64,000 nt of DNA, from contig NZ_CP016537.2 in NCBI RefSeq assembly GCF_001687585.2, forward strand, positions 2,514,001 to 2,578,000. The letters run 5' to 3'. Shown here piece by piece: positions 9,980 through 64,000 of the stretch. Below the pieces are notes generated by a model, which was not told the DNA's origin, did no database searches, and saw nothing but the letters and a program-made list of their open reading frames with translations. Made by a program: the position numbers and the translations under genes. The DNA comes from Planococcus halocryophilus (GTDB taxonomy: Bacteria; Bacillota; Bacilli; Bacillales_A; Planococcaceae). The first letter of the stretch is position 1; every line of letters starts with the position of its first letter.

Positions 9980-9988
9980 ATCCCATTT

Positions 9989-44221: not shown

Positions 44222-44308
44222 CCCCAGTTCGAATTTATGAGCAATATGTGACAGCATCAATTTGTAGGTTGCTTGCCTTCACTCAGAAAATCTACTCATT
44301 GGCTGTCA

Positions 44309-45025: not shown

Positions 45026-45041
45026 AAATTCCTGTTACTTA

Positions 45042-46367: not shown

Positions 46368-46381
46368 ACCGATACCCCCGA

Positions 46382-47269
46382 CTAAAATAGTGGTGTAGCT
46401 GATTTTCCAGCCATCAATTCGTTAATGATGTTTTCTATATCTTGTCCGAACTCTGGGCTATCTAACGCGAACTCAATAGTTGTCCGCAAGAACCCAAGCA
46501 TCTCACCTACGTCATAACGTTTGCCTTCAAAATCATAGGCAAAGACATTTTGAACTTCGTTAAGCTTTTGAATGGCGTCTGTAAGTTGGATTTCTCCTCC
46601 TGCACCCGCACTTTGATTGCCTAAAAATTCAAATATTTCAGGTTCTAAAATGTAACGTCCCATAATCGCCAAGTTCGAAGGAGCAGTTCCTGGCTTTGGT
46701 TTTTCTACAAAGTTACTAACCTCATAACAACGCCCATCCACTGCGCTTGGATCGATAATGCCGTATCGGTGAGTTTCGTTATCAGGAACCTGCTGAACCC
46801 CAATAATAGATGATTGCATTTTGTCGTATTGATCGATTAATTGCTTTAAGCAAGGTTTTTCAGCTTTTACAATGTCATCCCCTAATAACACCGCGAAAGG
46901 TTCATTTCCGATAAACTTACGTGCACTCCAAACCGCATGCCCTAAACCTTTTGGTTCTTTTTGACGAATATAATGGATTTCCACATTAGAGGTGTGTTGA
47001 ACTTTTTCAAGAAGTTCAAATTTACCTTTTTTAAATAAATTGTCTTCTAACTCAAAATTCTTATCAAAATGATCTTCAATAGCACGTTTGCCTTTGCCGG
47101 TGACAATAATGATATCTTCAATACCAGAAGCGATCGCTTCTTCTACAATGTATTGAATTGTCGGTTTATCGACGATTGGTAACATTTCTTTGGGCATCGC
47201 TTTTGTTACTGGAAGAAATCGAGTACCTAGACCTGCTGCTGGAATGATTGCCTTTGTGACTTTTTTCAT
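46382..47269 (-). CDS. gtaB: UTP-glucose-1-phosphate uridylyltransferase
   Basis: About 296 residues; makes UDP-glucose. Family stretches: '[26 protein letters not shown]', '[19 protein letters not shown]', '[10 protein letters not shown]' and 'LLGDDIV'. ATG 47269 gives the normal N-terminus '[13 protein letters not shown]'; the frame is open 28 codons further upstream without support. First gene after a ~270-bp AT-rich stretch that probably carries a promoter. Confidence 0.95.
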
Positions 47270-47536
47270 TATAGTACCCACCCGCCTTTCGATTTTTCTA
47301 AACAATACTTTTTGATATTGGAATGGGTACCAAACGCGCCATTTTAGAAACATGTTTGCATATAGCTCGTTAAATATTTCCCCATTGTAACATCGATAGT
47401 CCTTTGAAAGAAGTTTATTTATACTAAATTTTCGGTTAATTTTTTATAAATAGTTTTATATACCTATGAAAATAATCATTATACTCTCAAATATTCATTA
47501 TTTCATTTTTAAATATTCTGATAATTTATAACGGTT

Positions 47537-48490
47537 TTAAGTATGAGAAACAATCATCTCAAGATCTCCGTCAATAAAATAATCACCGATTGTTGCTGGC
47601 ACGATGAAATTATCGCCTTTTTTCACAGTCGATACACTTTCTTTCGTGACAATTTGACCCGTTCCATTAATTACGCTGACTAATAAAAATCCAGTTGTTA
47701 AAGGCACTTCAGCTCTCCCGCCAAGCTTCCAGTGATAAACCGTAAAGTATTCACCTTCAATTAAACGAGTCGACTCCAGATTATTCATGCTCTCTTTCAA
47801 GTTATCTTGCACAACTTGTTTGTGCGGACAAGTCATTACTGCCATCGCTTGTTCTAAATGCAGTTCACGTTTTTTACCTTCATGATCAACTCGGTCGTAA
47901 TCATAAAGCCGGAATGTAATATCGGAACTTTGTTGTGTTTCTAAAATCACAATGCCTTTTCCAATAGAGTGTACCGTCCCACTTGGAACGTAAACAAAAT
48001 CCCCTTTTTTTACTTTCAGACTTTGAAATAACTTACTCCATTCACCACGGCCAACTAGTTGTTGAAATTCTTCTCTTGATTGGGCCTGGTGACCAATGAT
48101 GATTTCAGCATCTTCTTCACAATCTAAAATGTACCAACATTCCGTTTTCCCACACGGCTTATGAATAGATTCATCGGCGTAATGATCGTCCGGATGTACT
48201 TGAACAGACAATTGATCGTGTGCATCAAGTATTTTTACTAGTAGCGGAAATTCTCTATCCGTTATGTCACAACCAAATAACTGAGGATAGTTCCGCCAAA
48301 CTTCCGATAAGTTTTTTCCTTCTAATTCCCCATTCATGACAATAGAAGGTCCATTTTCGTGAGCAGATATAACCCACGCTTCACCAGTCGTCTGCGATGG
48401 AATATCGTAATTAAAAAGCTCTTGCAGCTTACCGCCACCCCAAATTCGTTCTTGGAATACTGGTTTTAAAAAAACGGGTTCCTTATACAT
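47537..48490 (-). CDS. manA: Class I mannose-6-phosphate isomerase
   Basis: About 318 residues of the short Bacillus ManA/Pmi type; converts fructose-6-phosphate to mannose-6-phosphate. Zinc-site cupin segments: 'LDAHDQLSVQVHPDD', 'KTECWYILDCEEDAEIIIG', 'GDFVYVPSGTVHSIGKGIVILE'. ATG 48490 lies seven bases after GGGAGG. Lies just downstream of the GDP-mannose pyrophosphorylase gene; phosphomannomutase is not in the window. Confidence 0.95.
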   Translation of the reverse strand: MYKEPVFLKPVFQERIWGGGKLQELFNYDIPSQTTGEAWVISAHENGPSIVMNGELEGKNLSEVWRNYPQLFGCDITDREFPLLVKILDAHDQLSVQVHPDDHYADESIHKPCGKTECWYILDCEEDAEIIIGHQAQSREEFQQLVGRGEWSKLFQSLKVKKGDFVYVPSGTVHSIGKGIVILETQQSSDITFRLYDYDRVDHEGKKRELHLEQAMAVMTCPHKQVVQDNLKESMNNLESTRLIEGEYFTVYHWKLGGRAEVPLTTGFLLVSVINGTGQIVTKESVSTVKKGDNFIVPATIGDYFIDGDLEMIVSHT

Positions 48491-48552
48491 GAGACTTCCT
48501 CCCATCATAGAAATGACAAGTCGTTACTCTTGTGCCAATTCTTTCACACACA

Positions 48553-49938
48553 TCATCCGTAGCGAGCAGTCAGTTTCACTTTGCAAATTTCTTCAATTAC
48601 TTCCCATTCATTTGAAGTGCGGAAAATATCTTCTTCGATTAATTCACTACCTGTTTGCACTTCAATAATCTCCATATCGGTTGTTGCTTTTAAAGTGTGT
48701 TTCGCACCCAACGGGATATGAATCACATCACCTGTTCGGACATGGCTTAATTGATCATTAAAAACGAAAATACCCTCACCTTTAACAATGGTCCATATTT
48801 CACTCCGTTTATAATGCATTTGGTAACTAAGGTTTTTTCCTGCAGTTATACCCAATCGTTTAATGAGTACTTCATTGCCTTCAGCGTATCGTGTATATTC
48901 CAGAACACGATACCACCCCCACCTACGCTCTTCGTACATTGGCCGGCTATTAAAACCTTCCACATACTCTTTTACTTTTGTGCTAGCATCTTTATCTGTT
49001 ACCAAAATTCCATCTGGACTGGCCGCTACTACTACATTATCCAAGCCAAGCAAAGTAATCGGAATATCGAGTTCGTTTACAATATGAGAATTTTGTACTC
49101 CCTTACCGATTACGCCTTTACCCGTCACTTGAACTGCCATTTCATCTGTTAGCGTGTTCCATGTCCCTAAATCTTTCCAATAACCATCATAAGGTAACGA
49201 TACGATATGATTAGTGCGTTCAACCACTTCGTAATCAAAACTGTTTTTAGGAAGTTTATGATAATTTCTCAACAATTGAGAATATTCAATAGGCATTCCT
49301 CTGTCTTTAAGCAAGTCAATTATATAGCCTAATTTAAAAGCAAAAACACCGCAGTTCCAAAGTGCATTTTGTTCAATTAATTCTTCCGCTTGTTCTTCTG
49401 TTGGCTTTTCTTTAAAGTAGTCAACCGTTAAATAAGAATTTTCAGTTTTGTTCTTCGGAATAATATAACCGTATTTTGCCGAAGGATACGTAGGTTTTAC
49501 TCCCATTAACGCCAAATCTGCTCCAGAAGATAGTAAAGCTTCTTCCAAATCTTGAACACGATTGAAAAAGCGATTTTCTACGTAAGGATCTACCGGTAAC
49601 ATCCCCACAACTTCATCTATACTGCATTTTTGAACGGAATAAAGATAAACAGCTGCAAGAGCAATCGCCGGGAATGTATCTCTTCTTTCTGGTTCAGTAA
49701 CGACATGTACATCTTGTCCCAATTGCGTTTTGATCATATCTACTTGAGAACTACTAGTTGCAATTATAGAATTATCAGCCATCCCTATTTCTTCAATTTG
49801 CTTCCATACCCGTTGAACCATCGATACTTTATTGCCATCCTCATCACTTAAAACTTTAAGAAACTGTTTTGATCGTGCGTCATTTGAAAGTGGCCATAGG
49901 CGTTTCCCTGACCCTCCTGACAATAATACTAATCTCAT
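48553..49938 (-). CDS. manC: Mannose-1-phosphate guanylyltransferase (ManC type, with cupin)
   Basis: 461 residues. N-terminal nucleotidyltransferase 'LVLLSGGSGKRLWPLSNDARSKQF' and 'FKEKPT', then a left-handed-helix part, and a C-terminal cupin with 'RRWGWYRVLEY', 'LSYQMHYKRSEIW' and 'GDVIHIPLGAKHTLKA'. It makes GDP-mannose, the precursor used by Gmd and Fcl in the same operon. AGGAGGAGG precedes the ATG. The 460 bp upstream hold no gene. Confidence 0.93.
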   Translation of the reverse strand: MRLVLLSGGSGKRLWPLSNDARSKQFLKVLSDEDGNKVSMVQRVWKQIEEIGMADNSIIATSSSQVDMIKTQLGQDVHVVTEPERRDTFPAIALAAVYLYSVQKCSIDEVVGMLPVDPYVENRFFNRVQDLEEALLSSGADLALMGVKPTYPSAKYGYIIPKNKTENSYLTVDYFKEKPTEEQAEELIEQNALWNCGVFAFKLGYIIDLLKDRGMPIEYSQLLRNYHKLPKNSFDYEVVERTNHIVSLPYDGYWKDLGTWNTLTDEMAVQVTGKGVIGKGVQNSHIVNELDIPITLLGLDNVVVAASPDGILVTDKDASTKVKEYVEGFNSRPMYEERRWGWYRVLEYTRYAEGNEVLIKRLGITAGKNLSYQMHYKRSEIWTIVKGEGIFVFNDQLSHVRTGDVIHIPLGAKHTLKATTDMEIIEVQTGSELIEEDIFRTSNEWEVIEEICKVKLTARYG

Positions 49939-50317
49939 ATTACGTCCTCCTCCTCGCTATACGCTTCTAATTGAGCGATAGTTATGATAGTTACTAAGAC
50001 CCAGTAATTATGCTTAAAAAATGATTTATAGGTAATTTTTATCTTAAATACAAACTAAGAGACTAGTTAATCTAGTTAATCTGTAATGGTATTAACTCAT
50101 TATATATATAAATACCTAATATTTCAATCTAATTTTCTAATTTATTAGAAATATCAGATATATTTACCCATTGAGTGTCCCGAACATTGTTATATCAAGG
50201 TTTATGAATTATTTTATTTTTCTTTTTTTTAGAAATTTAATACATTTTTTAAAAATCAATTAGATGCTTAGCTATTATCAACTCTTATTTTCCATTTAGT
50301 AGGAGAGAATATAGACA
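49939..50317. other. AT-rich gene-free region upstream of manC
   Basis: About 380 bp, very AT-rich, between manC and the terminator of the glycosyltransferase block. It should hold the promoter for the manC-manA segment on the minus strand, but no clear hexamer pair stands out. A short direct repeat (CTAGTTAATCT twice) is seen at ~50062-50082. Confidence 0.5.
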
Positions 50318-50363
50318 TAAAAAACCAGATCTGCGAAATCAATAGATTTCGCAGATCTGGTTT
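50317..50363 (-). terminator. Terminator of the glycosyltransferase block
   Basis: A 19-bp perfect stem (50322-50340 with 50345-50363) has an AATA loop, with T residues after it on the minus strand. It divides the exopolysaccharide locus into two transcription units. Confidence 0.9.
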
Positions 50364-50399
50364 ATGTTTAGTTTATTTATTTTTATGAATTACTTTCTC

Positions 50400-51683
50400 T
50401 TATTGTTCAATAGGCCGAGTTGCACCTGGCTGTGAATGATCTGACACTGTCTGTAAAACATGGCGGTATTTATTGATAGAAGTATCTCTTGTTAAGTTTT
50501 TTTCGAGATAAGAACGTCCTTTCAAGCCCATTGCTTTCAGTTCGTCTCCGTCTAGACTCCTCAAGTAATTAATCGCGTGAGTTACTCCTTGGTAATTTTG
50601 AGGTTCAATAACCACACCCGCTCCACTTTCAAAAATTAAGCGCTGCACTTCGCTCCCTTGTTCTAGAACTCCAAGAACTGGTTTGCCAGCGGCCATAACA
50701 CCATAAATTTTACTTGGTACTGAAACACCTTTAATCCCCTTTTGGTTAACAACCAAATGAAGGTCAGCTGCATTTAAGGAATACTTGAGAAATTCTTTTG
50801 GTTGATAAGGTAAAAATTTAACGTTCTTCAACTTATTTTCTAACGCATATGTTTGTATCCGTTGTTTAATGGCACCTTCTCCGATAAACAAGAAGACAAT
50901 ATCTGGCTGATCGACAAATTCTTTCGACACTCGTATTAAGTTTTCTAAATCATAATACAACCCAAGATTCCCTGAATACATAACGATAAATTTATCTTGT
51001 AACCCGTGCATTTCTAAAAACTCACGGATTTTAGGCTCGGTTTTCTCAAGAGGCACAATGGCGTCTTCATCTGTCCAATTACTGATGACCGTATGATTTG
51101 GTACTTTTCCGCCTTCAAAACGACCCCTTAACGTTTCTGCCATGTCTTCCCCGACAACCAATACTTGATCCGCATAACTGCAATTTAGTTTGTCGATTGC
51201 TTTAGCAATTTTAAAGACGGTTTGGTTGTTGGTATATGCTACTGCTTGTGCCTGTTCAGGATTAAAATCATGAATGCTATAAACATGTCGCGACCGTTTC
51301 AGTAGTTTGCCGATGGTTCCGATCAATCCGCCCAATACGGGTGGTTGAGAAATCGTAAAAATAACATCTGTCCCTTTTTCCTTGAGCAACGCAATGTTTG
51401 CTAATAAGAAATAAGAAGAGATGTATTTGATTCGGCTGATTTTCGAGTTTTTGTTTACTTCGGGCAGCTTGATCCGAACCACTTTAATATTTTCTACGTA
51501 CCCTTCTTCAAAGAGCTTTTTACTTTCATGATTTTCTCCTGCATATCCCGGTTGTGCCGCAATAACTGTAATTGTGAAGTCATGTTGGAGATACTTTGTT
51601 AGTTCGGTCATCAATTGGCTTGTTGCTGCGAGATCCGGATAGAAGTAATTAATAACAAAGGTTATTTTTCTTTTGCGTATCAT
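50400..51683 (-). CDS. Glycosyltransferase family 4 (WbuB-like)
   Basis: About 427 residues with GT-B fold. N-terminal 'INYFYPDLAATSQLMTELTKYL' and 'VIFTISQPPVLGGLIG', C-terminal nucleotide-binding 'VMYSGNLGLYYDLENLI' and 'KGVSVPSKIYGVMAAGKPVLG' with the GT4 'SKxYG-MAAGKPV' signature. Resembles WbuB-type transferases of O-antigen and colanic-like loci (fucosamine or related sugars), but donor specificity cannot be read. ATG 51683 follows GGAAGGG. Last gene of its transcription unit. Confidence 0.88.
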   Translation of the reverse strand: MIRKRKITFVINYFYPDLAATSQLMTELTKYLQHDFTITVIAAQPGYAGENHESKKLFEEGYVENIKVVRIKLPEVNKNSKISRIKYISSYFLLANIALLKEKGTDVIFTISQPPVLGGLIGTIGKLLKRSRHVYSIHDFNPEQAQAVAYTNNQTVFKIAKAIDKLNCSYADQVLVVGEDMAETLRGRFEGGKVPNHTVISNWTDEDAIVPLEKTEPKIREFLEMHGLQDKFIVMYSGNLGLYYDLENLIRVSKEFVDQPDIVFLFIGEGAIKQRIQTYALENKLKNVKFLPYQPKEFLKYSLNAADLHLVVNQKGIKGVSVPSKIYGVMAAGKPVLGVLEQGSEVQRLIFESGAGVVIEPQNYQGVTHAINYLRSLDGDELKAMGLKGRSYLEKNLTRDTSINKYRHVLQTVSDHSQPGATRPIEQ

Positions 51684-51731
51684 ATGACCCTTCCTTTCCT
51701 TAAAAGCACGCAACAAACTCGTTGCCTTCAC

Positions 51732-52841
51732 TTAAAGTTCATCAAAAATAGACACCAACCGATCGGTGTATTTATCTTCCGTATAAAATTCTTCAAACGT
51801 ATCCCGACTCATTCTGCCAAGGCGCATACGTTCTGCGTCATTTGTCACCAACTCTTTTATCGCAGCTTTTACTCCTTCTACCGTTGGTTCGATAACCACA
51901 CCACAATCTTTGATCAACTCTGCAATAATCCCTCGGTCCGAAGAAATAATCGGCAATCCTGCCGCCATCCCTTCGATAATAGACATGGGTTGACCTTCTA
52001 CTTTATATTTGGTCGGTAACGCCATCATATCTGACTCAAGGAAAAAACGTTTTTTCTCTTCCCCTTGCTTTAACCCATGATATTGTATCAAGTGATCTAC
52101 ATCATTCTCCGCAATATAATGCTTGATTTCTTGGAATTCATCTTCATTTTGAATTCCACCAACCAAATCTAAGCGTAAATTATGCCCTTCTTGAATTAAC
52201 GCAGTTGTGGCTTTAATCAATTCAATATAGCCTTTTTCAAACATGAGATTACTCAAATACAAAAGAGATACCGTTCCTTTTTTCTTCCCTTGACCCACTT
52301 CGTTTTTCAATATAAAGTCTGCAGGAATGCCGTTGGATACCACTTCCACATGTTTGACATGACCGCGGTAATTTGGCGTTAGCTTTTCACCTAATACAAT
52401 TCCAACATCAATTTTTTGCAATGAATAAATGATGAATTTCCGTGTAATTCCAGAAGTAGCGTCAATCGTGCCACCTAAGTTATTACCATGTAAATGACTT
52501 ACCACTTTACCACGCCCGAGAACTTTGCAAGCTTGGATCATCACACAATCACGTAACAACCCCATTTTAGTTTGCGAAATGGAAATATACAAAATCGGTT
52601 TCTTCATACGCAGTGATAAAAAGCCAGCGTAAAAAATAGCTACTGAATCATGCAGCAATTTATCAAAAGAAAGCGCACCAGGATGTTCAAAATCTTTCTT
52701 GCTTAAATTAATTTTTTTCACATTATATTGTTGGTGAAGTTTTTCTGAATTATACAAGGATTGAAGAGCGATGCTTTCTCCTAGTATCGGAGGAGGCAAA
52801 GGCCCAACAAATATCAAATCCCCTTTTTTTGTCTCAGTCAT
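51732..52841 (-). CDS. Glycosyltransferase family 4
   Basis: 369 residues, GT-B fold: N-terminal 'FVGPLPPPILGESIALQSLY' and C-terminal 'VSLLYLSNLMFEKGYIELIKA' with the GT4 motif 'EGQPMSIIEGMAAGLPIISSD' (EX7E-like). AGGAGAGGTG precedes the ATG. Adds one sugar of the repeat unit at the cytoplasmic face; the donor is unknown. Between a second GT4 gene and the putative polymerase gene. Confidence 0.9.
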   Translation of the reverse strand: MTETKKGDLIFVGPLPPPILGESIALQSLYNSEKLHQQYNVKKINLSKKDFEHPGALSFDKLLHDSVAIFYAGFLSLRMKKPILYISISQTKMGLLRDCVMIQACKVLGRGKVVSHLHGNNLGGTIDATSGITRKFIIYSLQKIDVGIVLGEKLTPNYRGHVKHVEVVSNGIPADFILKNEVGQGKKKGTVSLLYLSNLMFEKGYIELIKATTALIQEGHNLRLDLVGGIQNEDEFQEIKHYIAENDVDHLIQYHGLKQGEEKKRFFLESDMMALPTKYKVEGQPMSIIEGMAAGLPIISSDRGIIAELIKDCGVVIEPTVEGVKAAIKELVTNDAERMRLGRMSRDTFEEFYTEDKYTDRLVSIFDEL

Positions 52842-52900
52842 GTTAAAGCACCTCTCCTATAAATGACATCAACTTGCCCAGTGGCACAATCTGACTTTTT

Positions 52901-54277
52901 TTAATGCGGATCAGTAGAATTCAATTCACGCTTATCCACTAAATCTTTTTCGAACGAAGAAACAATAAGGTAGATGATAATAAAAACAGGAAGGATAATG
53001 ACTAGCGGCTTGATGTAATAAATAAAGCCGTACCAGAATACTCGCGCAACAGTTAAAACAATCCAGTAATACCCTAATGCCCTTCCGAAATTACCAAAGA
53101 GTTTTTTTAGAATTACAGTAGGTGTGAAAATAATGACATATGTAGCAAATGGCGCAACCACTAGCCCCAGAACTCCAAAGTTCAAGTAAAATTCTCCGTA
53201 AACAAACAATCCGTAGTTCGTGTGAATGAGTGAAGCGACAAGATGGGCAGCTTCTGGGCTCTTCGCTTCAATTCCAAGAAAAGAAGGAATCAGCTGCGGA
53301 ATATAATCGATAATTGTATAAAAATTACCATACGTATGCGTTACTTCAATTGCAGCAGCTGTGGAATAAACAAGATCTTGAACAGTTGGGTAGTTGACCA
53401 AAATTGCTACAGAATCCAGAATTGCTTGCACATCAAAAATCAGTCCTGAATGCCTCACCAATCCCAAATAAGAAAAAAGTAATAATCCCCCTGCAATTAA
53501 CGCTGCTTTTTTAAATGAAAAGCCCGATTTAATCACATCTAATTTTTTAGTGGCCGTTAATAATAGATATAAAATCAACAGCAAACCTAAAATATCGACT
53601 CGAGCATAATGTGACAATAACCAAAAAGGGACAAACAAAATAGCGAATTTTCGTACCCCACTCCCTTTAACGCCCATCAACACAAAGAAGTACGAAATAA
53701 CAACAACAGAGTTCCATGCATTCCCGGGCAATAAACTTGGTGAAAGTTCGTTATACGCCCCTCCAGGTAGATCCGGCAAATAGATGATTGCAGAAACTAC
53801 AGCTAAAATACTGAACAGCCAAGTCGCTAACAAACTATGGACTGTCCCGGAAAAATACGCCAACATTTTAGCATCGTAATTGCCATACGTCTTATTAGTT
53901 ATCCACAGCAATATCGACCAAGCATAGTAGAAAAAAAGTGCACTGAAGGCCAATATATAAAAATGCCGTTCAATTAGATGGGTGCGATCATTAAATAAGG
54001 GCTGCACTTCTCCAATCGGTGCATAGCCTAATATGCTAATAATCGGCAAAAATAAAAGCACAAGTGAAAAAGAAGAAAATCCCACCTTAAAAATGTATAT
54101 ATCCATTAATAACTTGAAGGAAAATAGAATTAAAATGAACAAGTTCCATGGATCATCAGCATTGAAAGCCTGACCTATTTGCAGCAAGTAATAGATCACT
54201 GAAATCCCAGTTATTAAATTGACGATGATAAACAAGACATTTTCAAATCGATCATCGGCTTTCATATGCTTTTCCAT
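52901..54277 (-). CDS. Putative exopolysaccharide repeat-unit polymerase (Wzy-like)
   Basis: 458 residues with about eleven to twelve membrane helices and a large outer loop near residues 270-350 ('GIEAKSPEAAHLVASLIHTNYGLFVYGE' region), the form of oligosaccharide repeat-unit polymerases; the 'YGEFYLNFGVLGL' end is common in such proteins. Wzy proteins are poorly conserved, so the call rests on topology and on its place among glycosyltransferases and a Wzx gene. It would join lipid-linked repeats outside the membrane. Confidence 0.72.
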   Translation of the reverse strand: MEKHMKADDRFENVLFIIVNLITGISVIYYLLQIGQAFNADDPWNLFILILFSFKLLMDIYIFKVGFSSFSLVLLFLPIISILGYAPIGEVQPLFNDRTHLIERHFYILAFSALFFYYAWSILLWITNKTYGNYDAKMLAYFSGTVHSLLATWLFSILAVVSAIIYLPDLPGGAYNELSPSLLPGNAWNSVVVISYFFVLMGVKGSGVRKFAILFVPFWLLSHYARVDILGLLLILYLLLTATKKLDVIKSGFSFKKAALIAGGLLLFSYLGLVRHSGLIFDVQAILDSVAILVNYPTVQDLVYSTAAAIEVTHTYGNFYTIIDYIPQLIPSFLGIEAKSPEAAHLVASLIHTNYGLFVYGEFYLNFGVLGLVVAPFATYVIIFTPTVILKKLFGNFGRALGYYWIVLTVARVFWYGFIYYIKPLVIILPVFIIIYLIVSSFEKDLVDKRELNSTDPH

Positions 54278-54334
54278 AATCTCATTCCTTTATTTATAAT
54301 TCTCTTTTTCGACACCCCACTACCTTCCACTCTG

Positions 54335-55306
54335 CTAGGAAGGTGCATCTGCAGAGAACAACTGGGATTCTTTATTTTTTTTTTTTGATCGCCTATATAG
54401 GTAAGTTAAAATTTTCATATGCAAGAAAGTGGAAAGGTAATAGAATAGAAAATTCAATGACACTCGGTCATTTTTAAATCCTTCTATCAGTATTTTTCTA
54501 GACAACTGCACAACTTCTTTGTTTTGACCGATAATACCCGTCCGGAAAACAACTTTCCAAATGGTTAAAGTAAAACGATGAAAAGTAGACTTCCGCTGTT
54601 GCATAGCTAGTTCTTTATACTTCTCGAAAATGCTTAAATGCCCGTTGAGCACGGAAGTTTTATTGGTCGTAATTCGTTCCCCGCTATGATGATAAAATAA
54701 CACCATGCTTTCTTTGACAAAATCGAATTTTGTCACCTGCGCCAGTCTGATATACAAATCCCAATCTTGACAACTGGGCAACTTGGCATCAAAGCCCTCT
54801 ATTTGATCTAATACTTCTTTTCTAACTAGTACAGAAGAAGTCGTATCGATATAGTTAAACTCAAGCAACTTGGACAAAATATCTCCGCGATATTCCGGAA
54901 TGATTTTACGAGTAGGCTGATTGTTTTCATCAACTACTTGCACCCCTGTATAAACTACTCCGACATCTGGCTCGTCATTAAATTTCTCTAACTGCATTTC
55001 GATTTTTTCTGGCAGCCACTGATCATCTGAATCTAAAAATCCGATGAAATTCCCAGTAGCCTTTCTTAACCCGGTATTCCTTGCTTCCGATCCGCCTTTG
55101 TTCACCTCATGTTTCAAGTAGATAATTCGGTCATCTGTCATTTCTGCCACAACAGCTTCCGTATCATCAGTTGAAAAATCATCAATAATGATGATTTCCA
55201 AGTTTTGATGACTTTGCTTTTCTAAACTTCCCACAGCTTTTTTCAGCAGTTCCGAACGATTGAACGTTGGAATAATAACACTGACTTTGTCATTTAAGGT
55301 CACCAT
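54335..55306 (-). CDS. Glycosyltransferase family 2
   Basis: 323 residues; GT-A fold with 'VSVIIPTFNRSELLKKAVGSLEKQS', 'IIIDDFSTDDT', 'NKGGSEARNTGLRKATG' and the DxD-like 'FLDSDDQWLPEKI'. GGAGGG precedes the ATG. Soluble or peripheral; adds one sugar of the repeat. Lies between the GDP-mannose dehydratase gene and the polymerase gene. Confidence 0.92.
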   Translation of the reverse strand: MVTLNDKVSVIIPTFNRSELLKKAVGSLEKQSHQNLEIIIIDDFSTDDTEAVVAEMTDDRIIYLKHEVNKGGSEARNTGLRKATGNFIGFLDSDDQWLPEKIEMQLEKFNDEPDVGVVYTGVQVVDENNQPTRKIIPEYRGDILSKLLEFNYIDTTSSVLVRKEVLDQIEGFDAKLPSCQDWDLYIRLAQVTKFDFVKESMVLFYHHSGERITTNKTSVLNGHLSIFEKYKELAMQQRKSTFHRFTLTIWKVVFRTGIIGQNKEVVQLSRKILIEGFKNDRVSLNFLFYYLSTFLHMKILTYLYRRSKKKNKESQLFSADAPS

Positions 55307-55345
55307 TGCACTTTATCCCTCCACCCGTTAAGGAAACCGCTCTAT

Positions 55346-56410
55346 TTAGTATTCGCTGATTGCACTCTTTTCTTGTTTCACTAAATTACAGTCATGCGTC
55401 ACCATAATTTCCACAAGTTCTTCAAAAGAAGTCGCCGTCGGATTCCATCCAAGTAGCTTTTTCGCTTTTGCAGGGTCGCCCAGTAATTGTTCAACCTCAG
55501 CTAAACGGAAATATTCCGGATTTACTTCAACTACAATTTCCCCAGTATTAACATCAAAGCCTTTTTCATCAATTCCTTCTCCTTGCCACTCTATTTCGAT
55601 TCCTGCATGTTTAAATGCGAGTGTCGCAAATTCACGCACAGTGTGCATTTCGCCGGTTGCGATGACAAAATCTTCTGGCGTATCGTGTTGCAAAATAAGC
55701 CACATACATTCTACGTAGTCTTTGGCATAACCCCAGTCTCGTCTAGCATCAAGGTTTCCAAGTAACAATTTGTCTTGTTTGCCGTTAGAGATACGCGCAA
55801 CAGCCATAGTGATTTTACGCGTGACAAACGTTTCTCCACGTCGTTCGGATTCGTGGTTAAAAAGAATGCCGTTGACCGCGAACATATCATAAGATTCCCG
55901 GTAGTTTTTTGTAATCCAATAGCCATATAATTTCGCCACTCCATATGGCGAACGCGGATAAAACGGCGTTGTTTCTCGTTGTGGAACTTCTTGTACTTTC
56001 CCGTATAGTTCCGAAGTAGAAGCTTGATAAATGCGCGTCTTTTTCTCTAAACCGAGAATACGAACCGCTTCTAAAATACGCAAAGTGCCGATTCCATCAA
56101 CATCTGCTGTATATTCAGGTGTCTCAAACGATACTTTCACATGAGACATAGCTGCTAAGTTATAAATTTCATCTGGTTTAATTTCACTGATTAGTCGAAT
56201 GATATTAGAAGTATCTGTCATATCCCCATAATGTATATAAAAATTTTCACTCGACTTTAACTCTTCAATATATAAGTGCTCAATGCGTCCTGTATTGAAA
56301 CTTGAACTTCTCCGAATGATGCCATGTACTTCGTAACCTTTTTCTAATAAGAAATCCGATAGAAACGAACCGTCTTGACCGTTTACTCCAGTAATCAATG
56401 CCTTTTTCAT
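55346..56410 (-). CDS. gmd: GDP-mannose 4,6-dehydratase
   Basis: 354 residues; turns GDP-mannose into GDP-4-keto-6-deoxymannose. SDR features: '[19 protein letters not shown]' (NADP site), '[16 protein letters not shown]', '[20 protein letters not shown]', catalytic '[10 protein letters not shown]' and '[19 protein letters not shown]'. It starts 12 bp after the fcl stop; together the two give GDP-L-fucose (or related deoxy sugars). Confidence 0.96.
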
Positions 56411-56421
56411 AATGATCCCCC

Positions 56422-57363
56422 TTATAATCGTACTTTCTCTGTCTGTTCTAAAAACCAGTCATAAGCCATTTTTAATCCATCATCTAGCGGAATTTTCGCT
56501 TCCCACCCAAGACTCTTTAATCGACTAACATCCACTAACTTACGCGGCGTACCATCAGGTTTCGATGTATTAAAGACGATTTCACCCTCATAGCCAACTG
56601 TTTTCCCCACTTTTTCAGCCAGCTCTTTAATCGAAATATCTTTGCCAACACCGATATTGACCAAATCGTTTCCGTTGTAAGTATTCATCAAGTATATGGC
56701 TGCATCTGCCAAATCATCAGAGTAAAGAAATTCCCGTTTTGGCGTTCCCGTGCCCCAAACTTCAACAGTCTCAGCCTGAGAAACTTTTGCTTCATGAAAT
56801 TTCCGAATAAGCGCCGGTAGAACATGTGAACTTGTTAAGTCGAAATTGTCATTCGGGCCAAATAGGTTTGTAGGCATAATTGATATAAAGTTCGTGCCAT
56901 ATTGACGATTATAAGATTGGCACATTTTAATGCCCGCTATTTTAGCAATAGCGTATGGCTCATTTGTCGGCTCAAGTTCTCCGGTCAATAAGGAATCTTC
57001 TCTCATCGGCTGTTCTGCTAGTCTCGGATAAATACATGTACTGCCGAGAAACAGTAGTTTTTTTACTCTATTCCGATGAGCAGCATCAATGACATTTGTT
57101 TGAATCATCAAATTGTCTCGGATGAATTCTGCTGGGTAGTCGTTATTTGCAGCAATTCCCCCAACTTTTGCTGCTGCTAAAAATACGTAGTCTGGTCGTT
57201 GTTCTTGAAAAAAAGAATCGACTTGATTGGAGTTTGTCAGATCCAGTTCTTTACTGGTCCGAAACACAAGATTATGATAGCCCTTTTCTTGTAGGTTTCG
57301 TACAATTGCCGATCCGACAAGACCTCGATGTCCCGCTACGTAAATTTTCGATTCCAAGTTCAT
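56422..57363 (-). CDS. fcl: GDP-L-fucose synthase
   Basis: 313 residues; epimerase-reductase acting on the Gmd product. '[18 protein letters not shown]', '[21 protein letters not shown]', 'FLGSTCIYP', '[16 protein letters not shown]' (catalytic Tyr-Lys) and '[13 protein letters not shown]' are diagnostic. AAGGTGGGG precedes the ATG. First gene after a 260-bp gap, so it may start its own transcript. Confidence 0.96.
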
Positions 57364-57522
57364 AAATACCCCACCTTTTTTAGCTATTGCCTTATATAAT
57401 CCGATAGAAGTTAACGTTTATTTCATGCTCGTTTTTTTAAAAAATCAATTTCGGTTAAAAAACGACCTTTTACCCAAGACTTTATACTTACTAATCAAAC
57501 TTATTTTCTTATTCTAACATAC

Positions 57523-57556
57523 AATAGTCTAAATATTACAGATTATTTAGACTATT
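57523..57556. promoter_or_regulatory. 13-bp perfect inverted repeat between wzx and fcl
   Basis: AATAGTCTAAATA (57523-57535) and TATTTAGACTATT (57544-57556) with an 8-bp spacer, in the 262-bp gap. No T-run follows on either strand, so an operator or leader hairpin upstream of fcl is as likely as a terminator of the Wzx gene. Confidence 0.55.
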
Positions 57557-57625
57557 TAATGTTTTGTGCAATTAATTTTAATTTTGTACAGAGCAAATGT
57601 ACAAGACATTTCTTTCAAACCATGT

Positions 57626-59101
57626 TTACCCTTGTTTCACTAACGTTTTTTTTCGAAAAAATCCTTTTACCTCAACTATTAACTCACGTTGATTTAATAC
57701 CATCAACACACCATAAATTAGTCCACCAGTAATCGCGTCAGTAATGATGATTCCAACTGCTCCAACTTCTGTTAATCGGGAATTCAGCAAATACAAAAGT
57801 GCCATCATGATAAAAGAATGAACTACCGGCTTAACTATTGATAAATTTAATTCACGCAAGCTATCTCCGATAATTTGACGGATCCGCACAAAATAACTGA
57901 CATAAAACAACAGCATTTTAAGCAAACCAACCGCAATCGCCACCACAAAAATTTCACCCGATAGTCCTGCTAGAAATACGACAACTGGAATAATCGCTAG
58001 CTGAAACAATTGCCAGTAAAAGCTCCACCTTACTTTGCCAACAGCGATAAATAAGCTACCACTTGGATTTCCCAACGCTTTAAACAATCCGTACAAGCAA
58101 AGGATTTGAATAATGAGAATACTCCTTTCCCAATCTTCTCCTAGCAGAAGTGGAACTGCGTATGGCGCAAGAACAATAACCCCTGCCAATAACGGTGCAT
58201 TAAAGCTTGTTAACATAGTTGTGATTAGCAAATAAGTTTTTCTCAACTTTCGTTTATCCAATTGAATTTTTGAAAATACAGGAAATGCAACTCGGTTAAT
58301 CATAGAATTCAACTTTTGGACTGGCTGCATAATAAGATTCATGGCCATGCTGTAATAACCAAGCGCGACAGGACCTAACATAACTCCTACAACCATTTGA
58401 TCAATTTTAGTGGTGAAATAATTGATACTTGTGGAACCTAGACGATACAAACCAAAGCTGACAAAACCTTTAATCGCCTTCCACGAAAAGACCAGTTGTG
58501 GTCGAGTTTCCGCATCCTGATAACCAGCTATAACCCACGGAACACTCCTAAATAACGACATCACAATATGTCCGTAAACGAGTGACCAGGCACCCAGAGC
58601 TGTAAAAGCTGCTAAGTAAACTGTTAACAAGACGCCAATTGTTGTCGCCAAAATTTCATTTTTAGTAATTTGTGAAAATTCCAATTTTTTTGTAGCAAGT
58701 GTTTGAAATTGCAAACCGAACGGCAAGATGATAAAGCTAATTCCAACGACTTGTATCATGCCGGTTAAGCTCGGTTCATTAAACATCAACGCAATGACTG
58801 GAGCCAGTATGAATAAGATTAGGAACAAGACGAATCCGACAAAAATAGAAAACCAGTACAAACTAGATAGCTCAATTTTGCTGATTTTTTCTTTTTGAAT
58901 AATGGCATCTGTTATCCCCATTTCCAAAAATAGTTGCGAAAATTGAATAACAATTTGCACCATAGCTATTAGACCAAAAATTTCCGGCCCCAACACTCTA
59001 CCCAATATCAGTAACTGAGCGATTTGGAGAACACTCGTCACGAGCATCGATATGGAAGTAAGTTTGACACTAGTTACTGCTTTGCTTTTTAAAGATGCCA
59101 T
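57626..59101 (-). CDS. Repeat-unit flippase (Wzx/TuaB-type, MOP superfamily)
   Basis: 491 residues with about fourteen membrane helices. The N-terminal 'LGRVLGPEIFGLIAMVQIVIQFSQLFLEMGITDAIIQ' is typical of the TuaB/RfbX branch of polysaccharide flippases. Carries lipid-linked repeats to the outer face for the Wzy polymerase. AGAGGAAT precedes the ATG; 21 bp after the fusion protein gene, so co-transcribed with it. Confidence 0.92.
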   Translation of the reverse strand: MASLKSKAVTSVKLTSISMLVTSVLQIAQLLILGRVLGPEIFGLIAMVQIVIQFSQLFLEMGITDAIIQKEKISKIELSSLYWFSIFVGFVLFLILFILAPVIALMFNEPSLTGMIQVVGISFIILPFGLQFQTLATKKLEFSQITKNEILATTIGVLLTVYLAAFTALGAWSLVYGHIVMSLFRSVPWVIAGYQDAETRPQLVFSWKAIKGFVSFGLYRLGSTSINYFTTKIDQMVVGVMLGPVALGYYSMAMNLIMQPVQKLNSMINRVAFPVFSKIQLDKRKLRKTYLLITTMLTSFNAPLLAGVIVLAPYAVPLLLGEDWERSILIIQILCLYGLFKALGNPSGSLFIAVGKVRWSFYWQLFQLAIIPVVVFLAGLSGEIFVVAIAVGLLKMLLFYVSYFVRIRQIIGDSLRELNLSIVKPVVHSFIMMALLYLLNSRLTEVGAVGIIITDAITGGLIYGVLMVLNQRELIVEVKGFFRKKTLVKQG

Positions 59102-59122
59102 TGGCCATTCCTCTAATCCGGT

Positions 59123-61237
59123 TTAATATAGAATTTTTCTCCACATATTCCGCCGTTGCTTCGGAAAAATCCCATAAGGACGGTCTTCTGCAAAATCTTC
59201 TGGGAATCCGTTAAGATCAAACGAATCATTAACACTTGGTGGTAGTTGCTCGTATTGATACAAAAACTCGAAATCAATCAACCTTAACCCTTCAGAGGTC
59301 AGCAGTATATTTCCGGGATGGAAATCAATTAGCGCATAGCCTTTGTTGTAGAAAAACTCGTTAATCTTAAAAATTTCTTGTTTATGTTTTCGTTTTAAAA
59401 TTTGTTTTTTGATATGCCAGCTTTCAGTTAACGGGTTTGTTTTTAAATAAGGAACAATAATATAATTTTCTCCGCTGCTAATTAGCTTCGGAATAAATTC
59501 ACATTCCTTGCTCAATTCACCGTAAACAAATTTTTCGCGTTCCAAAAACCGCTCTTTGCCCGCTTTATACGTTTTTTTCACAGCTTTACGCCCTTGATAT
59601 TCGATAATTTCCACTTTGGCACGCCGTTTCTTCTCTGAGACATCAGCAATTATCTTTTCTTCTGTCCGGTAAGCTTTGTCCCAAGACATAACGATGTCTT
59701 TAACTTCTAGCAAAAGATCCGGAGCGACTGCAGCAATATAATCCAAAGCTTCAATTTCATCGTCCGCACTATGAAGAGGGTTGGCACGTTGCTCTTTTGA
59801 TAAAGCAAAGTTAATGTCCGAACGCAGTAGTTCTTTTAACAAATAATGTTGGTTCGACACATGTGGATACTTTTTCTTCATTTTTGCAGGTAGTGGTTTG
59901 GGGTGATAATCATACATGACCAGTAAGGTGGACGGCTTTCCGCCACTTACTGGCCATGGTCCTTGCCCCCAATTCCCACCTCTCAAGTTTTGAGTCGCGT
60001 TTCTTTTTTGTTCTTCATCGAGTGTAATTGCTCGAATAAGACATAGCCCGTTACGTTCAAACCAATCAATAATTTTATCAGTCAATTGACGCTCGTCTGC
60101 CCATTCTCTTACGACAAATACCATCAATTCGCCGTCTTTTTCGAAATTGTGCTCACTCGACTTAATAATCGATTCGAGCCACTTGCCACTTACCCCAATC
60201 AATTTACGAATTGTATCTGTTGAAGGCGCCCAGCCTTTCTCCTCAAGAAAATGATGGAAATATTCTAAGCTGATTTCATCAAGTTGATGTCCCGTTTCAT
60301 TTGCTAAACGCTTTAAAATCCCTGGATAATCATGATCTTGTGGAATTTGTTGGACTAAGCCACCCGATTTTGCAGGAATCCCTGATTTTTCGCCTTTATG
60401 ATAAACTGCGTGATACATCAAACTAAGCATATGATGGTCAGCTGACGGTACGAAATACTTATTGTTCCACAGCCGGCGTTGGTCCAATATGGTTTCTCCA
60501 ATGTATGGAGGATAATAAGCAATGTTCTTGAAATTACTTCCCATCAGTCCGCCCACACTGTAAATATCAAAAGGTAAAATCCCTACTTTTTCGTTTAATA
60601 AGTCTCTAACCTTTTCAATATGTTCGTCAGCAATTAATAAATCCACATCCTCGTCCAACTCTAAAAATGGCAATTCGTCAAACCAACGTAAAATAACGTA
60701 ATCTAGCTGGCGTTTGTTAAGAATTTCAAAGAAATTCTCGAGTCCAAGTTCAGGAGACAAATATTGTCGCGCTTGTTTTTCTTTTTGATGATTTCGCTTA
60801 AAGACGATGCTAGTTCGCGTATCTCCTAAACGATCCGTGAAATTTTCAAAGCGGAAATCCCATTTTTTCTTCCTGGCTAATTTATACGCCCAAAGTGGTA
60901 AAAAGCTTGCACGATCAATCATTTTCGCTGGAATAAAAAGAATGATATTTGCAGAAGAATGGAAAGCATTTTTCAAATCCAGAAAATCAGCTTTGTTAAT
61001 CACCAGTACTTCTGCATTATTTTTATAGGTAAGTGTTTTTTCATCAGCATAATAAAAATCTGGATTTCGCTTCTCTCCAGGATTTTGTGTGCATATTCCT
61101 AAATAATTTTCATACCCTTCATCGGCAAGTTGTCTTTTCAAGCTACTCGTTTCAGCATTGTATTCCAGTATTTTTACTGATTGTTTTGTTGGATACGCAG
61201 TTTTTATAAATTCACTAATTGTCGGCTGAATTGCCAT
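59123..61237 (-). CDS. Multidomain fusion: nucleotidyltransferase-like, NDP-kinase-like and kinase-like parts
   Basis: About 704 residues, no membrane segment. Residues ~1-150 look like a worn Rossmann-type domain without clear SAM motifs. Residues ~170-330 resemble a nucleotidyltransferase-fold protein ('LDYVILRWFDELP', acidic 'DEDVDLLI' 195-202). Residues ~370-515 recall nucleoside diphosphate kinase: 'NPLHSADDEIEA' (H489) matches the NxxHGSDS active-site form. Residues ~540-704 are a kinase-like fold of the WaaP/RIO sort: Lys ~551-554, Glu567, 'DFHPGN' (D638, N643), 'LIDFEF' (D655). ATG 61237 lies nine bases after GGGGG. Between rfbB and wzx in the exopolysaccharide operon; probably phosphorylates a glycan or lipid intermediate (inference). 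Confidence 0.6.
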   Translation of the reverse strand: MAIQPTISEFIKTAYPTKQSVKILEYNAETSSLKRQLADEGYENYLGICTQNPGEKRNPDFYYADEKTLTYKNNAEVLVINKADFLDLKNAFHSSANIILFIPAKMIDRASFLPLWAYKLARKKKWDFRFENFTDRLGDTRTSIVFKRNHQKEKQARQYLSPELGLENFFEILNKRQLDYVILRWFDELPFLELDEDVDLLIADEHIEKVRDLLNEKVGILPFDIYSVGGLMGSNFKNIAYYPPYIGETILDQRRLWNNKYFVPSADHHMLSLMYHAVYHKGEKSGIPAKSGGLVQQIPQDHDYPGILKRLANETGHQLDEISLEYFHHFLEEKGWAPSTDTIRKLIGVSGKWLESIIKSSEHNFEKDGELMVFVVREWADERQLTDKIIDWFERNGLCLIRAITLDEEQKRNATQNLRGGNWGQGPWPVSGGKPSTLLVMYDYHPKPLPAKMKKKYPHVSNQHYLLKELLRSDINFALSKEQRANPLHSADDEIEALDYIAAVAPDLLLEVKDIVMSWDKAYRTEEKIIADVSEKKRRAKVEIIEYQGRKAVKKTYKAGKERFLEREKFVYGELSKECEFIPKLISSGENYIIVPYLKTNPLTESWHIKKQILKRKHKQEIFKINEFFYNKGYALIDFHPGNILLTSEGLRLIDFEFLYQYEQLPPSVNDSFDLNGFPEDFAEDRPYGIFPKQRRNMWRKILY

Positions 61238-61285
61238 TATTCCATTCCCCCTTGTCCACCGGCAAATCAGGCTAGGCACAGATCG

Positions 61286-62302
61286 TTATTTGCGCGCATA
61301 TTGCCTGTCAAAATATTGTTGGTATTCGCCACTGATAATTTGTTCCCACCATTCATTGTTCTCTAAAAACCATTCGACCGTTTGTGCAATACCTGTTTCA
61401 AAATCATAAACGGGCCGCCAACCTAATCGTTCAATTTTTGTCGGGTCAATCGCATACCGTTTGTCATGACCACGACGATCTTCGACAAATTCGATTAAAT
61501 CTTCTGATTTTCCTAAAGCGTGGATAATCGTTTTTACAACATCGAGATTTTTTTGTTCATTATGTCCGCCAATATTATAAACTTCTCCAATTTCTCCGCT
61601 ATGCATGACCAAATCGATTGCCGAACAATGATCTTGTACATGCAACCAATCTCGCACATTTTTGCCGTCGCCATAAACCGGTACTTTCTGATCATTCAAC
61701 ACACGTGAAATCGTTAACGGAATTAACTTCTCTGGAAAATGGTAAGGGCCATAATTATTAGAACAACGCGTAATATTGACCGGTAAGCCGTAAGTTTCGT
61801 AATACGCTCTTACCAATAAATCCGATGATGCTTTACTAGCACTATAGGGACTACTAGGTTGAAGCGGTGTTTCTTCAGTAAAAAAAGTAGTAGGATCAAA
61901 ATCCAGCTCTCCGTATACTTCATCTGTAGAAACGTGGACAAATTTTTTGATGTTTGCTCGTTTTGCAGCTTCGAGTAATACTTGCGTTCCAAGCACATTG
62001 GTCCGGATAAAAATTTCCGGCTCTGCTATAGAACGGTCAACATGACTTTCAGCCGCAAAATGAACGATATACGTAAAGTCGACTTTTTTAAATAATGCTT
62101 CAACAGCTTGACGATCCGCGATATCGATATGAACAAAACTATAATTGACATCTTTTTCGATCGCTTGATGTTTTGTTAGATCTCCTGCATATGTCAGTAA
62201 ATCTAAGTTATAAATATGGTAATCAGGATAATTAGCGGTCATGTATTGGACAAAGTTCCCTCCGATAAATCCCGCTCCGCCGGTGACGAGTATATTTTCC
62301 AT
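61286..62302 (-). CDS. rfbB: dTDP-glucose 4,6-dehydratase
   Basis: 338 residues; makes dTDP-4-keto-6-deoxyglucose. 'ILVTGGAGFIGGNFVQYM', 'HFAAESHVDRSI', 'VSTDEVYGELDFD' (catalytic Asp-Glu), 'YSASKASSDLLVRAY' and 'RCSNNYGPYHFPEKLIPL' are all present. GAGGAG precedes the ATG; 12 bp after rfbA. Together with RfbA and the DegT enzyme it points to a dTDP-amino-deoxy sugar; rfbC and rfbD are not seen here. Confidence 0.97.
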   Translation of the reverse strand: MENILVTGGAGFIGGNFVQYMTANYPDYHIYNLDLLTYAGDLTKHQAIEKDVNYSFVHIDIADRQAVEALFKKVDFTYIVHFAAESHVDRSIAEPEIFIRTNVLGTQVLLEAAKRANIKKFVHVSTDEVYGELDFDPTTFFTEETPLQPSSPYSASKASSDLLVRAYYETYGLPVNITRCSNNYGPYHFPEKLIPLTISRVLNDQKVPVYGDGKNVRDWLHVQDHCSAIDLVMHSGEIGEVYNIGGHNEQKNLDVVKTIIHALGKSEDLIEFVEDRRGHDKRYAIDPTKIERLGWRPVYDFETGIAQTVEWFLENNEWWEQIISGEYQQYFDRQYARK

Positions 62303-62314
62303 AGGTGCGCTCCT

Positions 62315-63205
62315 CTACGATTTATTCGGTGAAAGTGATCTCTCACAAGCAATATCCAATAAGTACTTGCCGTATTCCGTTTTCTTTAAAGACTGCGCCA
62401 AGTCGATCAAATCTGACTGACTAATATAGCCTTTCCGGAAAGCTATTTCTTCAAGACATGCTACATATAAACCTTGTCTTTTTTGAATCGCTTCTACAAA
62501 ATTTGAAGCTTCTAACAAAGCTTCATGTGTACCTGTATCAAGCCACGCAAGTCCGCGGCCCATAATGTTGACCTGCAATTCTCCCCGTTTTAAATATTCA
62601 TTGATAATAGAAGTAATTTCTTTTTCGCCACGTTCTGAAGGCGTTACTTGTTTGGCGATTTCAACAACTTGATTGTCAAAGAAATAAAGCCCAGGAATCG
62701 CATAGGAAGATTTTGGTTTTTCTGGTTTTTCTTCTATAGATACAATATTTAACTCATCATCCACTTCAACCACTCCATAAGCTCTCGGATCTGCGACATG
62801 ACATCCGAAAATAATGCTGCCTTTTGTTAGTTCAGCTGACTCTGTTAGTCGGCTACCAAAATCCGAGCCGTAAAAAACATTGTCCCCTAATATAAGGGCA
62901 ACAGGAGAGTCTCCAATAAAACTCTCCCCAATCGTAAAGGCTTCAGCCAATCCATTTGGTTCTTCTTGAATCGCATATTCCAGCTTGATACCGAGTTTTT
63001 GGCCATTTCCTAGTAAACTTAAAAATCCAGAAATGTCTCGTGGTGTTGAAATGATTAGAATTTCTTTAACACCTGCAAGCATTAAAACAGATAGCGGATA
63101 GTAGATCATTGGCTTATCGTATACAGGCAGCATTTGTTTCGAAATTGACTTCGTTAACGGATACAACCGTGTCCCCGTTCCTCCAGCTAATATAATCCCT
63201 TTCAT
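62315..63205 (-). CDS. rfbA: Glucose-1-phosphate thymidylyltransferase
   Basis: About 297 residues; makes dTDP-glucose. '[26 protein letters not shown]', '[14 protein letters not shown]', 'LGDNVFYG', '[12 protein letters not shown]' and '[19 protein letters not shown]' are diagnostic. ATG 63205 follows GGGAG and overlaps the stop of the aminotransferase gene by 4 bp, showing coupling. Confidence 0.97.
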
Positions 63206-64000
63206 CCTAACTCCCTCATTTCTACTAAATGAAATAGATTCTTTTCTTTGATGTGAATGTCTTCGATTATGGCGCATATTTCAGCGACTGATTCGATTGT
63301 TAACGCCCCGTAATACGGCATCGCTAATACTTTTCTAACAGCCTTTTGAGCTTGTGGAAGGTTTTCCGGCTGCGCAGATGCGAGTCCGCTATACCATGTG
63401 AAATCACTGCATAGTGGAGAAAAATATTTTCTTGCGAACACATTGGATTTTTGAAGTTCTTCATGGACAAAATCTCTCGATTGACCAAATTTCTCTTGAT
63501 CGATTTCAATAACGAAGTACTGATAGCTGCTAGACTCGTTTTCAAGTGTAGTTAACACCCGAATTCCTTCAACAGATGCTAAGTTTTCTTCATAAGTACG
63601 TTTTATCTTGTGGCGCTTGTTGCGTTCTTCTTCTACTACTTTTAAAACTTCCAGGCCAACACTTGCTTGAACTTCATTCATTTTGGCGTTCAACCCAGAC
63701 AATGCCACTTCTTCAGCGTTAACGATGCCGAAATTTCGCAACAAGCCTAAACGTTTGTCGAGCGCCGCGTCATGATAAGTTAGCGCGCCACCTTCAACCG
63801 TATTAAATAATTTCGTCGCATGAAAACTGAACATCGTCATATCTCCAAAGCCACTAATAGGGACACCGTTCACTTTTGCACCAAAAGCATGAGCGCCATC
63901 ATAAATGACTTTGAGATGATATTTATCTGCAATTGCCTGGATTTTTTCAACATCACACGGATTGCCAAACACATGAACACCTAAAATGGCAGTCGTTTTT
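63202..64000 (-). CDS. DegT/DnrJ/EryC1 sugar aminotransferase, partial
   Basis: At least 266 residues; the frame runs to the window edge ('[16 protein letters not shown]' begins what is seen), so the N-terminus is missing. PLP-dependent aminotransferase of nucleotide sugars: '[15 protein letters not shown]' (PLP Asp), the PLP lysine in '[17 protein letters not shown]', and '[15 protein letters not shown]'. With RfbA and RfbB it probably aminates dTDP-4-keto-6-deoxyglucose or its 3-keto isomer. Regiospecificity cannot be told. Overlaps rfbA by 4 bp. Confidence 0.93.

Follow-up and report, generated by a model that had tools for sequence, protein, structure and literature searches.

The window analysed here, the whole 64-kb stretch of Planococcus halocryophilus DNA, carries on its minus strand a gene of 704 codons (59123..61237, stop codon included). 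It is read from an ATG at 61237 down to 59126 and closed by a TAA stop at 59123-59125, which corrects the preliminary description of this DNA as to strand. The sequence AAGGGGG is found nine bases 5' of this ATG; a GTG at 61279 offers an alternative, earlier start, but close homologues begin at ATG 61237 instead. According to labels read from the sequence, the upstream neighbour is an rfbB-like dTDP-glucose dehydratase gene (61286..62302, minus strand) and the downstream neighbour a Wzx-like flippase gene (57626..59101, minus strand), whose ATG is separated from the stop codon of the 704-codon gene by 21 bases. The position between rfbB and wzx, to which the preliminary description drew attention, holds in the window but is not constant even within the genus.

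The gene is part of a same-strand exopolysaccharide cluster (42681..63972, minus strand; labels read from the sequence by eye), which contains a tyrosine-kinase pair, sugar transferases, GDP-fucose genes, a polymerase, a flippase and dTDP-sugar genes, and which extends about 10 kb beyond the end of the window. A second flippase-like gene lies in the same cluster as the one at 57626-59101 (64412-65914 in window numbering, locus L088; labels by eye). FemAB/GNAT-like genes (68975-69964 and 73540-74544, L088, window numbering; label by eye) occupy the cluster's far end, and similar genes are also carried by Planococcus operons in which the 704-residue protein is split. The source genome is a single contig of 3.42 Mb, with a separate normal ndk gene.

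Domain architecture of the 704-residue protein

No family was found above cut-off when the full protein was compared with Pfam and NCBIfam, and a single-sequence search of the PDB returned one weak match, a designed protein. Related proteins number at least 222 at E ≤ 1e-3, the window's own counted and among the part of the candidates that was scored, so that the ORF and its architecture are not due to chance. The closest named relatives among the matches listed belong to Planococcus, and the named members among the listed proteins are mostly annotated as "hypothetical" or "kinase-domain" proteins. Conservation is given below as counts over 120 listed proteins aligned, the window's own included; these counts are not independent, since the first 41 members are at least 48% identical to the query. 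The individual alignments cover 24 (A1) and 78 (A2) of the 120 listed proteins, and the window's protein together with 69 of 80 pieces (A3), 65 of 72 (A4), 53 of 60 (A5) and 28 of 38 (A6).

An AlphaFold2 model of the full-length protein (pLDDT 93.8, pTM 0.85) and profile searches divide it into four parts, as the preliminary description had proposed. Its nucleoside diphosphate kinase (NDK)-like and kinase parts are borne out and its nucleotidyltransferase (NTase)-like part is probable, while the N-terminal part has turned out not to be a constant element of the architecture. The stable unit of the family, as judged from sequence, is the predicted NTase-NDK-kinase series.

The N-terminal part (residues 1-153; 60779..61237, minus strand), which the preliminary description read as degenerate Rossmann-type, is of alpha/beta character, with helices and strands in alternation in the full-length model. 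Neither Pfam nor the PDB yielded a convincing relative by profile, the single PDB match being weak, and Methyltransf_23 matched only one of 29 N-terminal pieces, at E 0.26. Neither model nor sequence has a Gly-rich loop after the first strand, and no motif is recognisable in this part. Many relatives lack it or have something else in its place: P0042, P0078 and P0089 begin near the NTase domain, and P0074 lists Pfam accessions of the TPR type.

The NTase-like domain (residues 154-357; 60167..60778, minus strand) resembles NTP_transf_5 (PF14907), a family of uncharacterised nucleotidyltransferases, with conserved D197, D199, D224, H276 and H280. The similarity is weak: 15 of 66 members match PF14907 at E ≤ 0.1 (best 5.5e-4), and the window's own piece does not match it by itself. 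The assignment made in the preliminary description is consistent with these weak matches and with the acidic triad of polymerase-beta-type nucleotidyltransferases and NTP_transf_5, which is kept in the family as a putative metal-binding D197-V-D199 (60641..60649, minus strand; D197 in 120/120, D199 in 119/120) and a third acidic residue, D224 (60566..60568, minus strand; 120/120). A Gly-Gly/Ser motif before the DxD is typical of the nucleotidyltransferase superfamily; L183-R184-W185 stands in place of the Gly-Ser motif here, with R184 in all 120 proteins and W185 in 119. In contrast to NTP_transf_5, this NTase-like domain shares a chain with an NDK-like domain in every case except a stand-alone gene at one locus (L066, see below). 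The NTase profile found one match in the PDB, weak and unconvincing, and NCBIfam matches of NTase pieces were rejected as chance-like.

For the NDK-like domain (residues 358-530; 59648..60166, minus strand), 22 of 70 family sequences trimmed to this segment match PF00334 at E ≤ 1 (best 4.1e-8); the window's own piece, searched by itself, does not. A profile of the piece retrieved 38 PDB sequences at E ≤ 1, of which 36 are named NDK and the other two are thioredoxin domain-containing protein 6 and a designed protein. The piece was also modelled alone (pLDDT 90.7), because kinases filled the fold search of the full-length model, and its fold matches NDKs. Together these results corroborate the NDK-like domain of the preliminary description. 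The motif N486-P-L-H489 (59771..59782, minus strand) aligns with the phospho-histidine motif NxxH of NDKs, and both N486 and H489 are kept in 120/120 proteins; among the wider set of loci, L079 and L080 carry a different residue in place of N486. Also conserved in the domain are R377 (119/120), R472 (120/120) and D492 (119/120), and the family shares with PF00334 aligned Arg and Ser/Thr-Asn positions.

The family departs from NDK at two active-site positions and in having, between the conserved blocks, a loop of the RGGNWG type. NDKs have an active-site lysine, Lys12, and a glutamate after the histidine, Glu129. In the family the lysine is replaced by Arg377 (R in 79, K in 1 and a gap in 2 of 82 chains, a count that takes in fragments and L081-L084), and the glutamate at His+11 by Tyr500, with Y in 118 of the 120 proteins; the genome's own ndk has Glu. 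With both residues exchanged, ordinary NDK activity is not to be assumed from the fold.

The C-terminal domain (residues 526-704; 59126..59662, minus strand) is protein-kinase-like, of the RIO/APH/Kdo-like kind by fold search and profiles. The full model matches the protein-kinase-like fold, with the kinase part of a class III lanthipeptide synthetase as the best Foldseek match. Kinase core residues are strongly conserved (K555 in 120/120, E568 in 119/120), as are the HxD-like catalytic loop D638-F-H-P-G-N643 (59309..59326, minus strand) and the DFG-like aspartate D655 (59273..59275, minus strand). Fold and residues support the kinase assignment of the preliminary description, and the residues that it named, H489, D638, N643 and D655, are found where it placed them. 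Among homologues H489 and D655 are invariant (120/120), N643 is present in 117 and D638 in 113, the seven losses making it the least conserved of the four; the models give the NDK-like and kinase-like folds expected.

Distribution of the family and fate of its three sites

Scanning 84,980 species genomes brought up 95 relatives, of which the best 80 loci were analysed. By record title these come from Planococcus, Lentibacillus, Cyanobacteria, Bacteroidetes, Planctomycetes, Actinobacteria and Proteobacteria, and further from Spirochaetes, Gemmatimonadetes, Kiritimatiellae, Patescibacteria and others. The distribution is sparse. Of the 46 genomes of the genus that were searched, 22 carry a member at E ≤ 1e-20 (18 the full protein, four NTase-NDK only), and a profile of the NDK piece found a member at 1e-15 in one of 198 sampled Actinomycetota genomes, namely the centre of the sample. 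The whole-family profile matched 117 of 149 Planctomycetota genomes at E ≤ 1e-3, nearly all listed matches being to the kinase end only; matches below 1e-20 among those listed came from three genomes (G043, G104 and G062).

Each of the 80 loci was examined for the NTase triad, for H489 with its neighbours and for K555, E568, D638, N643 and D655, 72 of them through the ORF and eight by translating the match, as a greedy longest-first ORF script had missed the gene there. All three sites are intact within one chain at 58 loci. The kinase domain is absent at ten (L055, L061, L068-L071, L077-L080) and degenerate at three (L022, L063, L064). At six loci D638 alone is missing, replaced by G in L015, L018 and L058 and by N in L036, L054 and L059, and L041 has K555R; a regular expression found no other kinase at these seven loci. 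The NTase site is lost in a 640-residue protein of Billgrantia (L066), which carries R184H, D197E, D199V, D224T, H276E and K281L; 66 bases on, a stand-alone NTase gene encodes 242 residues with those positions intact. Limibaculum (L056) has two copies, the first with H489Q, R419C and N643D and an intact NTase domain, the second with W185R, D197S and H280L and intact NDK and kinase sites. In all 80 loci, at least one copy retains H489 and at least one the NTase triad.

A similar pattern is seen for the kinase. A regular expression made for this analysis picked out a further kinase-like ORF within the fetched stretch at eight of the 13 loci where the member has no kinase domain. Among 62 loci with a kinase domain in the member, two have such an ORF (Fisher 3.0e-6; 6.7e-5 when the near-identical Planococcus loci L085-L087 are counted once). 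The 13 loci are the ten named above and L085-L087; the 62 take in 13 loci of the Planococcus type as well as the three whose kinase is degenerate, and exclude the eight where the ORF script missed the gene. The expression misses the kinases of L068 and L069. Above the Pfam cut-off, the separate kinases are of the Kdo/WaaP type for L061, L069 and L071 and of the APH type for L080 and L085; those of L070 and L079 fall under it, the latter choline-kinase-like and just below. Each of the four split Planococcus operons (L085-L087 and L089, the last read after the count of 13 against 62) has a separate kinase gene, that of L085 alone having been scanned against Pfam. L022 has a separate family kinase piece of 254 residues with intact residues, which lies at the edge of the locus and may be cut. 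For L068 the adjoining kinase part lacks the Asn and matches nothing in Pfam, and for L055 no kinase was found in the fetched stretch, which covers 1.4 kb upstream.

The alphaproteobacterial locus L068 is organised as a pair of genes (9686-12458), the first encoding the N-terminal part, the NTase domain and the NDK-like domain, the second an apparently decayed NDK-like part followed by the kinase part.

At four Bacteroidota loci whose kinase domain is missing or degenerate, there is a P-loop gene no more than two ORFs away (L077:4527-5408, L078:12306-13109, L063:13313-14125 and L064:11655-12617). The profile of this gene family, which was built from the same genes that it recovers, gave one weak match in L040 (3.4e-4). 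AAA and deoxynucleoside-kinase models match the genes of L077 and L078, all below cut-off; the P-loop family would be a candidate kinase and may stand in for the protein-kinase-like domain that these Bacteroidota have lost. Where one of the three sites is lost, a gene nearby usually supplies it, which suggests that the three act together.

Genomic setting

The recurring context of the family is a surface-polysaccharide setting. Among the 59 non-Planococcus loci, with labels assigned by eye, 31 have a GT2-like cluster (14 within one ORF of the gene) and 13 a flippase-like cluster (eight within one ORF).

At 13 of the 80 loci, an unnamed domain of about 390 residues with a TGEKPQSKVW motif was observed in secreted proteins (L026:13915-15084, L061:17822-18991 on the minus strand, L064:6824-7993 and ten more of the family's loci; the matches in L022 and L049 are weak). 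Two domain pieces scanned against Pfam gave nothing above cut-off, and in several proteins the domain sits beside LamG, Ig-like or fn3 domains. It was found in two of 149 Planctomycetota and seven of 198 Actinomycetota genomes, sample centres counted. The idea that the enzyme is tightly linked to this domain was rejected: the two are often adjacent, yet the domain also occurs without the enzyme. A relationship to beta-propeller phytase was tested and received no support. Beta-propeller phytase genes proper (PF02333) lie near the family gene at four loci (L066:5843-6985, L029:10529-11584, L051:12766-13839 and L022:8410-9657) and are single-copy in three of these four genomes.

Proposed role in surface polysaccharide synthesis

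From the folds given by models and remote homology, the conserved residues, the surface-polysaccharide setting and the usual supply in trans of lost sites, we infer that the three predicted sites likely work as a set and phosphorylate an exopolysaccharide precursor, with the phosphate likely to be capped; we put the probability of this reading at about 40%. The C-terminal kinase domain would, with ATP, phosphorylate a hydroxyl of the polysaccharide precursor. The NTase-fold domain might then take a second group from a nucleotide-linked donor and join it to the new phosphate, so that a phosphodiester forms, by analogy with PsmN, which appears to act in this way once the kinase PsmK has done its step in the pathway of a lasso peptide. 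PsmN is presumably a PF14907 member. The NDK-like domain would relay phosphate via His489, most simply in recharging the nucleoside diphosphate released in the second step. This recharging is the least certain of the three steps, because the genome has its own ndk and both the Lys and the Glu of NDK are replaced; with a normal ndk already present, recharging nucleotides is also not an obvious need of the organism. Phosphorylation of the repeat unit, as suggested in the preliminary description, would agree with this scheme. Several observations weigh against the scheme: six loci have lost D638 and nothing else, and L041 has K555R, with no other kinase found at these loci by the regular expression; N486 is replaced in two loci; the NTase and NDK pieces of the window match neither PF14907 nor PF00334 by themselves; L055 shows no kinase in its fetched stretch; and the kinase part beside L068 is without the Asn. 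Somewhat more tentatively, the family may represent an undescribed system of several phyla in which a kinase, a nucleotidyltransferase and a phospho-histidine shuttle of NDK fold build phosphodiesters into surface polysaccharides, and in which loci vary freely between fused sites, split sites and substitution by unrelated kinases.

The same three activities also add up to a kinase, a nucleotidyltransferase and an NTP supply, and could produce an activated precursor: the kinase would act on a small alcohol or sugar, the NTase domain would join it to a nucleotide, the NDK-like domain would supply the NTP, and a separate transferase of the cluster would use the product. Combinations of a kinase with a nucleotidyltransferase are known from FKP and the LicA/LicC pair, APH-like kinases stand beside kinase-less members (L080 and L085 above cut-off, L079 choline-kinase-like), and a cytidylyltransferase-like gene, of the TagD type by eye, is present in a three-locus cluster. 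LicC and FKP are, however, Rossmann-type pyrophosphorylases, whereas the NTase part matches PF14907. By eye, the gene clusters contain no recurrent dedicated transferase besides glycosyltransferases, and the cluster in the window already has ordinary-looking GDP- and dTDP-sugar genes, so we consider an activated precursor unlikely.

An improbable alternative is a protein or peptide target: the kinase would phosphorylate Ser/Thr residues in a surface protein, and the resulting phosphate would be decorated by the NTase domain. It would accommodate the lanthipeptide synthetase as best Foldseek match, the peptide that serves as substrate of PsmK and PsmN, and the secreted proteins with the 390-residue domain at 13 of 80 loci (two weak), single-copy in nine of the 13 genomes. 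The last are not tied to the enzyme, as they occur in genomes without a family member: six of 197 other Actinomycetota genomes have the domain and, by the NDK-piece profile, none has a member, and the domain was not found in the 46 genomes of the window's genus that were searched. The Kdo/WaaP-type kinases present where the kinase domain is missing are glycan kinases, which likewise argues against a protein target.

Co-occurrence of kinase-like and phospho-His folds, and the CapA/CapB-type tyrosine kinase pair seen by eye in the cluster of the window, would also fit a regulator, in which a protein kinase and a phospho-His relay control polymer synthesis or chain length and leave the glycan unmodified. 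The NTase acidic triad is nevertheless kept in at least one copy at all 80 loci, and the dead NTase domain of L066 adjoins an intact stand-alone one that a pure relay would not need; we regard a regulator as decidedly improbable. It is highly improbable that old folds have been retained for binding or scaffolding with little catalysis remaining, as the loss of D638 in 7/120, the Arg at the NDK Lys position and the motif-less N-terminal part might suggest, because N486, H489, R472, D197, D224, K555 and D655 are each kept in 120/120 and the supply of lost sites by other genes is hard to explain without catalysis.

The proposed phosphorylation and capping of a polysaccharide precursor by the three sites has precedents in part. 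For the lasso peptide pseudomycoidin, phosphorylation by PsmK is followed by the nucleotidyltransferase homologue PsmN, which, according to a review, appears to add one or two hexoses at the phosphorylated Ser, nucleotidylation being left open there (PMC9266682). The order of kinase first and nucleotidyltransferase homologue second is as proposed here; unlike the present fusion, that system is described as two proteins with a peptide substrate, and the description does not mention an NDK-like domain. In E. coli O9a, WbdD adds phosphate to a glycan end, and this phosphate is then capped by methylation; WbdD is likewise a fusion, of similar length (708 residues), with a eukaryotic-type kinase and an N-terminal alpha/beta domain (PMC3482155). 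It differs in having an active SAM methyltransferase domain and a C-terminal coiled-coil region, and an NTase or NDK-like domain is not part of its description there. No WbdD-type SAM methyltransferase domain with its Gly-rich motif was found in the window protein.

The eukaryotic transferases FKTN and FKRP are LicD-like. LicD-family enzymes fall within the nucleotidyltransferase superfamily (PMC11666461), FKTN and FKRP add ribitol phosphate from CDP-ribitol to a glycan of alpha-dystroglycan (PMC4873967), and POMK is a kinase-fold glycan kinase of the same alpha-dystroglycan glycan (PMC5142810). A glycan kinase and phosphate-adding transferases thus serve one glycan there. To our knowledge, POMK, FKTN and FKRP are separate eukaryotic proteins without an NDK-like part.

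The logic of kinase then cap is thus already known, and the surprising part is the NDK-like third site. Our literature searches agree with the preliminary description in finding no described enzyme with this order of domains; no paper on the domain combination or on PF14907 by accession was found in the literature covered, which leaves out most subscription journals, and related searches brought neighbouring topics only. The fused, split and trans-supplied forms that occur naturally are ready material for assigning steps to sites. As the family has at least 222 members, with those named mostly annotated as hypothetical or kinase-domain proteins, one answer would annotate the whole family. If the proposed role is correct, the NDK fold would be at work beyond nucleotide housekeeping, the gene would serve to mark surface polysaccharides that bear phosphate in many bacteria whose phosphate chemistry is unread, and the family would represent a new means of incorporating phosphate into the surface sugars of bacteria.
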